A model generated the notes under the pieces. The model searched no databases, was not told the origin of the DNA, and saw nothing but the letters and a program-made list of their open reading frames with translations. From positions 151,102 through 179,724 of the forward strand of contig PBDP01000002.1 in assembly GCA_002718095.1 (NCBI GenBank): a DNA stretch of 28,623 bases, in the 5' to 3' direction. The translations under genes were made by a program, and so were the position numbers. The stretch comes from Chloroflexota bacterium. GTDB lineage: Bacteria > Chloroflexota > Dehalococcoidia > Lucifugimonadales > UBA826. Shown here piece by piece: positions 14,464 to 17,399 of this stretch (its first letter is position 1; every line of letters starts with the position of its first letter).

Positions 14464-15162
14464 TTATATTATGGTATCTCTTATTTTAAACAATGCTTGA
14501 GTTGCTGCTTCCATTTCAGATACTAGTTTACTAGCCCCTTCTCCTCTAGCATATTTTTCACCATTAACAATAACTTCAGAAATAAAAAATGTAGAGTGAC
14601 CTTCTCCGGTCTTAGACACCACATTGTATTCAGGTACTTCTCCCGTTTGAGATTGAACAATTTCCTGAAGTTCAGTTTTAGGGTCTTTCATAGTTTCACT
14701 AACAACATTATCGATATCATATTCTAAAATGTTTAAAATCACATCACATGTTACATTAAAGCCTTTATCAATAAATACAGCTCCCAATAAAGCCTCTAAG
14801 GCAGAAGATAGAATTGATGTTTTAGCCCGTCCTCCATTTTTATCTTCTCCTTTACCTAATAATAAATAATCCCCTAGGCCAAATCTTTTAGCAGATTGTG
14901 ATAAAGCTGAACCATTAACAATTTTAGACCTCATAATTGTAAGTTGACCTTCTGTAAAATCTGGATATTTATTAAATATCAGATGAGATATAGCTGCATC
15001 TAACACAGCATCTCCGAGAAACTCCAACCTCTCATTATTCATAGAAACATTTGGAGTTTCTGAAGTGTATGATGAATGAGTTAAAGAACTAATCAATAAA
15101 GACGGGTCATTAAATTGAATCCCTAAATAATTTTCTAATTGAGAGATATTATTTACTGTCAT
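14464..15162 (-). CDS. rnc: Ribonuclease III
   Basis: Double-stranded RNA endonuclease for rRNA and mRNA processing. The catalytic domain (about 1-150) contains the signature NNERLEFLGDAVLD with Glu44, Glu47 and Asp51. The second acidic cluster reads SILSSALEALLGAVF: the essential Glu is kept, but the Asp three residues before it (E. coli Asp114) is Ser. A dsRNA-binding domain follows (about 155-230), opening DPKTELQEIVQ and containing GEGASKLVSEMEAATQAL. I chose the ATG at 15162 (232 residues), which leaves an 8-base gap to the upstream DsbA-like gene. A TTG at 15192 in frame would add ten non-conserved residues and overlap that gene without a ribosome-binding site. Middle gene of a three-gene minus-strand run. 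Confidence 0.93.
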   Translation of the reverse strand: MTVNNISQLENYLGIQFNDPSLLISSLTHSSYTSETPNVSMNNERLEFLGDAVLDAAISHLIFNKYPDFTEGQLTIMRSKIVNGSALSQSAKRFGLGDYLLLGKGEDKNGGRAKTSILSSALEALLGAVFIDKGFNVTCDVILNILEYDIDNVVSETMKDPKTELQEIVQSQTGEVPEYNVVSKTGEGHSTFFISEVIVNGEKYARGEGASKLVSEMEAATQALFKIRDTII

Positions 15163-15170
15163 ATACGTAG

Positions 15171-15797
15171 TTATATCGCCCCTTTTGGCCAAGGTGGTTG
15201 AGGCCTTTTTACTTCTCCAAAATATGAACGTTCTGAAAAAAGTCCCACAAAATGTTCGAAGGCCTCCAGTGAATCCTCTAGTGGAGGGATAAATGTTTTA
15301 AGATATATCGACTGCCCATTATTGAAAAGAAATGTAGGAGTCCCAAAAGCCCCATGTGTTTTTGAAGCATCTTGATGATCCCCAGCAATAATATTTACTA
15401 ATTCAGGATCTAAAATATCTTTCTTAAATTTATCTACATCTAGTCCACATTCAAGAGCCACATCAATAAATATTTCGTTATCATTTAAAGGAACTCTTTG
15501 TTCGTGACGTTTTTTTAGTAAATTTAGGAAAAATTTATTGAAAGCTTCTTCTCCTTGACGCTTTGCTGCTTCCCCTGCAATTGAAGCCATAAGTGCTTTA
15601 GTTTGAGTAAAATCTGAAACTTCCCAAACTTTCCAATCGTCATCGCCTTTGTAATTGATTTGTTCTAAGGAAAAATTTCTCCAATTTATTTTTATATCGT
15701 CACCAATTAATTTTCTAACTTCATCCAGCCAAACTGCTGCATTATAGACAAAAGGTCAAGAAAAATCGTAAAAAACATCACAATGTAATTTAGTCAT
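15171..15797 (-). CDS. DsbA-like (FrnE-type) thioredoxin-fold oxidoreductase with in-frame TGA at the active-site Cys position; candidate selenoprotein
   Basis: Read through one TGA at 15758-15756 (codon 14), this is a 208-residue DsbA-family protein. The ATG at 15797 has a perfect AGGAGG (complement of 15803-15808) 5 bases upstream. Codons 1-13 read MTKLHCDVFYDFS, then TGA, then PFVYNAAVWLDEVRKLIG, and the frame stays open to the stop at 15171. In related proteins the residue after DFx is the redox Cys of a CPW/CPF motif, so the TGA sits on the catalytic residue; the resolving position is Val. The C-terminal half has FGTPTFLFNNGQ with the fold's cis-Pro, and ends KRPQPPWPKG. An internal ATG at 15590 has no ribosome-binding site and would delete the active site. 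Selenocysteine insertion is the favoured reading; TGC/TGT-to-TGA mutation or a sequence error would make it a pseudogene. Upstream of rnc. Confidence 0.72.
15711..15753 (-). promoter_or_regulatory. Candidate bacterial SECIS hairpin 3' of the in-frame TGA
   Basis: On the coding strand, counting from the base after TGA: stem CAGC (17-20) / GCTG (27-30) closes a six-base loop AGTTTG (21-26) with G at loop position 2. Below it lie a G.G mismatch and AT/AT (14-15 with 32-33), then after an internal loop CTA/TAG (9-11 with 39-41) and TTTT/AAAA (3-6 with 42-45). A short stem with a small loop carrying G in the first two positions about 16-37 bases after UGA is the general form of known bacterial SECIS elements. 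Not folded by software; SelB recognition is inferred. Confidence 0.45.
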
Positions 15798-15965
15798 TTG
15801 GTCCTCCTAACTCAAAAATTCCAGACAAAGAATGTCTCATATATAGTATAAGTGTAACAATAATTTAACAATGTAATAGTAAGATTACCCAAATATAGTT
15901 CTATGATAATAGACAAGAATAAAATTCCTTAATCGAAAAAGTAATGTAAATATTAGGAGCATTAA
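15798..15965. promoter_or_regulatory. Divergent intergenic region between the DsbA-like gene and glnA
   Basis: Holds the AGGAGG ribosome-binding site of the minus-strand gene (15803-15808), a small inverted repeat AGACA-aagaa-TGTCT (15823-15837), and the AGGAG of glnA (15955-15959, 6 bases before its ATG). Promoter-like AT-rich hexamers occur on both strands (for example TATGATAAT at 15902-15910 facing glnA) but none has a convincing partner. The two transcripts must start within these 168 bases. Confidence 0.4.
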
Positions 15966-17399
15966 ATGGCAAAATCAGCAGCCGGAATATTAAAATTAAT
16001 GAAAGAGAATAATTGCGATATCCTCGATCTGAAATTCACGGATCTACCCGGGACTTGGCAACATTTCTCAGTCCCAATTGGACAAGTTGACGATTCGCTT
16101 ATAGAGAAAGGAGTCGGATTTGATGGGTCTAGCGTAAGAGGGTTTCAGTCAATTGAGCAATCTGACATGTTAATAGTCCCGGATCCTTCAACAGCAAGAA
16201 TAGATCCGTTTTATACAGGACAAATAACTTGTATTGCAGATATTAAAGATCCTATTACTGGAGAAAATTACAGTCGAGACCCTAGAAATATTGCGAAAAA
16301 AGCTGAAGCATACCTTAAATCTACAGGGATAGGTGATACTTCATTTTGGGGTCCCGAAGTTGAATTCTTTATATTTGACTCAGTTCAATTTGATTATGGC
16401 TCTAACTTTGGTTTCCACAAAGTTGACTCTAATGAAGGTATTTGGAACTCAGGTGAGCCATACATGTTAGACGGGGTCACATTAAACCAAGGTTACAAAC
16501 CTAGGCATAAAGAAGGTTATTTCCCTACATCGCCTACCGATTCTTTCCAAGACTTAAGAAGCGAGATGGTAAGGTCACTCGTTAATGATTTTGGGCTAAC
16601 AATAGAAGCCCAGCATCACGAAGTTGCATCAGGAGGACAAGCTGAAATAGATATGAAGTATGACACATTATTAACGACAGCAGATGCTGTTATGTCTTAT
16701 AAGTATGCTGTGCGTAATGTAGCTAAACAATATGGCAAAACTGTCACATTCATGCCAAAACCTCTTTTTGATGACAATGGAACAGGTATGCATACACATC
16801 AATCAATATGGAAAGATGGGGTTCCTTTATTTGCTGGAGACGGATATGCAGGTTTGTCAGAGTTAGCGTTAAATTATATAGGTGGAATAATCAAACATGG
16901 TAAGGCTTTAATGGCATTAGCAGCACCAACAACTAATTCATATAAAAGACTAACCCCTGGATTTGAAGCTCCTACTATTTTGGCTCTATCAGCTAGAAAT
17001 AGATCTGCAGCATGCAGGATACCAATGTATTTCCCTGATCCAAAAGCAAAAAGATTAGAGTTCAGGTCTGCTGACCCTACGTGCAATCCATATCTGACAT
17101 TTTCAGCAATGCTAATGGCAGGATTAGATGGAATCGAAAATGGATACGACCCTGGTGAACCACTAGAACAAGATCTTTTTGAATTATCTCCAGAGGAAAC
17201 AGCAGGATTCCCTCAGGTACCTAGTAGCCTTGAAGAAGCCCTTCAAGCTCTTCAAGATGATCATGAATTTTTATTAAAAGGTGACGTATTCACAAAAGAT
17301 GTCATTGAAAATTGGATCAGTTATAAAACTGAAAATGATGCAGATCCTGTAAGGTTACGTCCTCATCCATATGAGTTTTACCTGTCTTTTGATGCTTAA
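15966..17399 (+). CDS. glnA: Glutamine synthetase type I (GSI-beta-like), lacking the adenylylation Tyr
   Basis: ATP-dependent synthesis of glutamine from glutamate and ammonia. The 477-residue length and the insert-bearing layout match GSI-beta enzymes. Motifs: VGFDGSSVRGF, FWGPEVEFFIFD with metal-binding Glu, HHEVASGGQAEID, the ATP-region MPKPLFDDNGTGMHTHQS, the NSYKRLTPGFEAP flap, and RSADPTCNPYL. The adenylylation region reads QDLFELSPEE: Phe405 occupies the place of the modified Tyr397 of enteric GS (NLYDLPPEE), so this site cannot be adenylylated. The ATG has AGGAG 6 bases upstream. It is followed by a terminator-like hairpin and a second GS gene, then gltBD. Function certain; loss of adenylylation follows from the residue seen. 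Confidence 0.97.
   Translation: MAKSAAGILKLMKENNCDILDLKFTDLPGTWQHFSVPIGQVDDSLIEKGVGFDGSSVRGFQSIEQSDMLIVPDPSTARIDPFYTGQITCIADIKDPITGENYSRDPRNIAKKAEAYLKSTGIGDTSFWGPEVEFFIFDSVQFDYGSNFGFHKVDSNEGIWNSGEPYMLDGVTLNQGYKPRHKEGYFPTSPTDSFQDLRSEMVRSLVNDFGLTIEAQHHEVASGGQAEIDMKYDTLLTTADAVMSYKYAVRNVAKQYGKTVTFMPKPLFDDNGTGMHTHQSIWKDGVPLFAGDGYAGLSELALNYIGGIIKHGKALMALAAPTTNSYKRLTPGFEAPTILALSARNRSAACRIPMYFPDPKAKRLEFRSADPTCNPYLTFSAMLMAGLDGIENGYDPGEPLEQDLFELSPEETAGFPQVPSSLEEALQALQDDHEFLLKGDVFTKDVIENWISYKTENDADPVRLRPHPYEFYLSFDA

Follow-up and report, generated by a model that had tools for sequence, protein, structure and literature searches.

Can a reading frame that is interrupted by a stop codon at its active site nevertheless encode a working enzyme? 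The question is raised by a single frame in the window, by which we mean the whole 28,623-nucleotide stretch of Chloroflexota DNA analysed here. The original prediction had described a frame opening at an ATG at 15797, preceded by AGGAGG at a spacing of five bases and broken only by a TGA at 15756-15758, which it proposed to be read as selenocysteine (Sec). All of these elements were found as described:

15171..15797, minus strand: predicted DsbA-like selenoprotein gene, 208 codons plus TAA, with Sec at codon 14, delimited by its read-through translation, a Pfam DSBA match (3e-15) and homologues across the order
15756..15758, minus strand: in-frame TGA, the only one in the 208-codon frame, predicted to be read as Sec and aligned, among the 62 copies read, with TGA (49 copies) or with TGT or TGC (13 copies)
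15803..15808, minus strand: ribosome binding site AGGAGG (15808-15803), recognised from sequence, five bases before the ATG at 15797-15795

The frame closes with TAA at 15173-15171 (minus strand). A standard ORF caller reports only 15590..15171, a product of 139 residues from which the active site has been lost, so that the truncation expected of annotation software does take place. The read-through protein scores 56.9 bits against Pfam DSBA (PF01323), above the curated cut-off of 25.6, and falls just below the cut-off of the Rv2466c-like family (PF22234; 26.5 bits against 27). Because of the DSBA match, and because 181 of the 250 genomes from its order encode a homologue, the frame is not a product of chance; nearly all of the matches listed contain one internal TGA.

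That the TGA is a true stop, and the gene a pseudogene or the result of a sequencing error, is suggested by there being one stop in one frame and by ORF callers beginning at 15590. The conservation of both codon and frame refutes this reading. The same TGA occupies the same codon in dozens of genomes, followed by full-length downstream frames at 36-68% identity, and a constraint resembling that of a SECIS element is present in the TGA forms only. Codon 14 was read at base level in 62 copies and is either TGA or a cysteine codon, with nothing else observed, and the gene is full length across the order, with no decay in relatives. We therefore regard a pseudogene or error as extremely unlikely.

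A second way of reading through the codon would be insertion of tryptophan or cysteine, by a changed genetic code or a near-cognate tRNA, and the cysteine carried at codon 14 by the Cys forms could be taken in its favour. Against this, TGA is the ordinary stop of eno, pdxT and glyA in the window, as originally noted, and also of folE and thrC, and tryptophan is encoded by TGG in the genes checked; since several ordinary genes end in TGA, the code is standard. Furthermore, the genome (1.44 Mb, 95% complete) encodes every component needed to decode UGA as Sec. A search for selA, selB, selC and selD recovered all four, with the tRNA-Sec (69.5 bits, anticodon TCA) and selB (314.6 bits) on contig C2, which is the window's own, and selA (541.9 bits) and selD (362.9 bits) on contig C5. 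As part of the machinery lies on the same contig as the gene, mis-binning is unlikely. Together with the hairpin described below, which is retained after TGA but not after TGT or TGC, these observations leave a tryptophan or cysteine reading with a negligible probability. The selD gene (L016, G000:C5:336900-337820, minus strand) itself has a TGA in frame in the loop of its active site (AACAG-U-ASKL), which makes SelD a predicted selenoprotein too. The bacterium is a marine one of SAR202 type, and the nearest named relatives of its genome are SAR202 and other Chloroflexi metagenome-assembled genomes.

On a maximum-likelihood tree of 67 proteins the Sec/Cys label changes about five times, at least four of these changes being forced by well-supported branches, and the Cys clades are mostly nested among Sec forms on long branches. 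The closest relatives of the window gene include, with weak support, a Cys clade of its own family (G228-G230). In a comparison compiled by hand, and covering genomes that are at least 90% complete and have a copy read, selA scored over the cut-off in 33 of 33 genomes with the TGA form as opposed to four of six with the Cys form, the two without it being G088 and G135. Outside the order, the family extends through the phylum, mostly without an internal stop, with some TGA forms. Two related genomes carry the selenoprotein gene in two tandem copies, both with TGA (L042, L043), and distant homologues in G557 and G541 were reported with TAG or TAA inside the match. Homologues with long open frames around them (670 residues in G006) do not appear to be fusions, as a stop follows the gene and the upstream frame, judged by eye, does not seem protein-like.

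Evidence for local recoding also comes from the RNA immediately behind the TGA, in which a further feature was placed:

15723..15742, minus strand: predicted bacterial SECIS hairpin, from its minimum free energy fold and from synonymous constraint and pairing seen in Sec forms only

In the window this hairpin lies 20 nt after the TGA and consists of a 4-bp stem, CAGC/GCUG (15739-15736 paired with 15729-15726), with the loop AGUUUG (15735-15730) and an additional outer helix of two base pairs, AU/AU. The loop has G and U at positions 2 and 3, and so fits the published bSECIS model, and the folding energy is -8.5 kcal/mol for +1 to +45 and -6.7 for +10 to +40. Taken by itself, the window fold is no better than that of shuffled sequences (z -0.39), folding of single sequences being non-discriminating here. 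Across the family, Sec forms typically contain CAGCC-GUGU-GGCUG and variants of it, with strong base-level conservation between positions +13 and +33 behind the TGA that includes synonymous sites. For most codons between +5 and +12, the synonymous constraint in Sec forms reaches a z of about 6-11, values that are inflated by the common descent of the Sec sequences. Individual codons are strongly preferred over the expectation from the same genes: GCA at codon +6 (34 of 41 Sec forms, 7.7 expected), GCC at +7 (36 of 41, 14.5 expected), GTG at +8 (35 of 44, 12.8 expected) and CTG at +10 (40 of 48, 17.1 expected). The same excess was absent from the codons behind codon 14 in Cys forms.

Pairing follows the same division. 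Each of the four core base pairs (17-30 to 20-27) can be made by 46-49 of the 49 Sec sequences as opposed to 3-9 of the 13 Cys sequences, with mean local energies of -9.4 and -3.0 kcal/mol, respectively. A change from G-C to A-U that preserves pairing at 19-28 occurs in five sequences, compensatory changes being few overall; since the stem hardly varies, consensus folding is weak, and RNAalifold returns three consensus pairs only. The window core is itself weaker than those of its relatives (-6.7 compared to about -9.8 kcal/mol), with an A-G mismatch at 21-26, and L081 is a poor case. In one Sec form, L066, the predicted hairpin, GGCUGGC-AUUUG-GCUGGCC, differs from that of the family and is possibly a shifted SECIS. 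The Rfam SECIS_1 model found no match over the genome; it was equally silent in all control genomes and its silence here therefore says nothing, while cmscan of the region gave chance matches only. As the Sec forms retain both this hairpin and the synonymous constraint, and the Cys forms neither, we identify the hairpin behind the TGA as the bacterial SECIS of this family.

Taken together, the Sec machinery, the alternation of TGA and Cys at codon 14, and a hairpin and codon constraint confined to Sec forms bear out the proposed recoding, and each of the originally suggested checks that was run gave a favourable result. On this comparative evidence it is very probable that the gene encodes a selenoprotein, in which SelB and tRNA-Sec would decode the UGA at codon 14 as Sec, guided by the downstream SECIS.

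The gene has these neighbours in the window:

14464..15161, minus strand: rnc (ribonuclease III), downstream neighbour, given for context; in the other members of the family that were read, rnc does not adjoin the gene
15966..17399, plus strand: glnA, lying upstream in divergent orientation and conserved as a neighbour in the family, likewise given for context

The original prediction placed the gene upstream of rnc, which is true in the window and peculiar to this genome. On these grounds we rejected any functional connection with rnc; the neighbours that the family keeps are instead glnA and, in several of its members, a TPP enzyme. With the TTG at 15192 as its start, the rnc frame as listed (14464-15192) would run into the selenoprotein gene, and the likelier start is ATG 15161.

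What kind of enzyme, then, would carry this selenocysteine? In an alignment of 35 members D11, Sec/Cys14, P15 and V17 are invariant, as are an FG(T/V)P cis-Pro loop (FGTP) and a C-terminal KxPxPxWP signature. The active site reads DFSUP in the window protein and UP(F/Y/W)V in the family, with D11-x-x-U14-P15 in every TGA row. An AlphaFold model made with three sequences, which has a pLDDT of 70 and weak stretches at 48-61 and 187-208, has DR2335 as its best structural match (Z 19.6), followed by YjbH, Rv2466c and HCCA isomerase, with FrnE and kappa GST also among the matches. The protein is probably cytoplasmic, since the stretch ahead of the active site is too short to hold a signal peptide.

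The DSBA domain, the DsbA fold and the structural match to FrnE could all indicate an enzyme that uses two redox residues to exchange disulfides, like a classical DsbA or FrnE. However, the position three residues after Sec, where DsbA has its second Cys, is Val in 35 of 35 aligned rows, neither a second active-site Cys nor any other conserved Cys column was present among these members, and the C-terminal CXXXXC of drFrnE is missing. A classical two-residue mechanism is thus quite improbable, and the assignment as a DsbA-like oxidoreductase holds for family and fold while the protein is not a classical UxxC DsbA. A second possibility is that Sec serves to activate or to bind a small thiol without redox turnover, in the manner of kappa GST or 2-hydroxychromene-carboxylate isomerase. 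Both are among the structural matches, at Z about 14-15, and neither is known to have a CXXC. The closest protein in sequence and fold is nevertheless the single-Cys DR2335, with the thiol oxidoreductase Rv2466c further off, and exchange between Sec and Cys is typical of redox sites, making a non-redox role unlikely.

As there is no conserved second Cys, and the best match has a single conserved Cys, a one-selenol oxidoreductase is the reading that we favour. In this model, the sole conserved redox residue of a DsbA/thioredoxin-fold enzyme would be the Sec at the start of helix 1, whose selenolate would attack a peroxide, a disulfide or a small thiol bound in a mixed disulfide. The Se-S or Se-O intermediate formed in this way would then need an external thiol for its resolution, as happens in one-Cys redoxins. 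Judged from the active-site composition, this sequence of selenolate attack and external resolution is somewhat favoured. More tentatively, the family may constitute a nearly order-wide one-selenol DsbA enzyme without an internal resolving thiol, for which SAR202-type Chloroflexota would supply a small thiol or redox partner, and in which Sec and Cys have been switched independently several times.

Relatives of this protein have been catalogued previously. DsbA-like selenoproteins of the UxxC type ('form 1') were described from the Sargasso Sea in 2005 (PMC1088965); they share with our family the fold of DsbA, a Sec in the first of the redox positions and an origin in marine bacteria, but the UxxC motif is replaced here by UP(F/Y/W)V with no second Cys. 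A 2026 review lists a 'DsbA-like form 2' in PF01323 with the motif DxxUP and the reference MDP6049977.1 (PMC13188914). Based on shared motif and Pfam family, through which the comparison was made, our family is most likely this form 2. It is thus well supported that the gene is real and belongs to a sort already catalogued, as opposed to a new kind. DR2335 of Deinococcus radiodurans (PDB 7dk9, 7dka), whose function is not reported (PMC8945050), is also the best match by sequence (E 4e-25); it resembles the family in its single conserved Cys (CPYA) and an RRPxP-like C-terminal end, and differs in having Cys in place of Sec and in an identity of about 25-28%. Rv2466c, a mycothiol-dependent DsbA-like reductase of Mycobacterium, shares the fold and aligns over its full length (Z about 15), but has a CPWC dithiol site. 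FrnE proteins are defined by an N-terminal CXXC, often with a C-terminal CXXXXC (PMC8945050), and the N-terminal motif is lacking in the window family. Literature searches combining SAR202 with selenoprotein or with DsbA found no paper, and in a search combining SAR202 with selenocysteine neither word stood in the title or abstract of any paper found.

The gene merits correct annotation, as standard annotation truncates it and so removes its active site from view in a large group of ocean bacteria, with the consequence that selenium use in these bacteria is probably undercounted. With the partner Cys absent, one may ask which thiol reduces the enzyme in these organisms. Finally, Sec and Cys lineages stand side by side, with the SECIS kept in one and lost in the other, and these natural experiments make both the cost and the benefit of selenocysteine testable.
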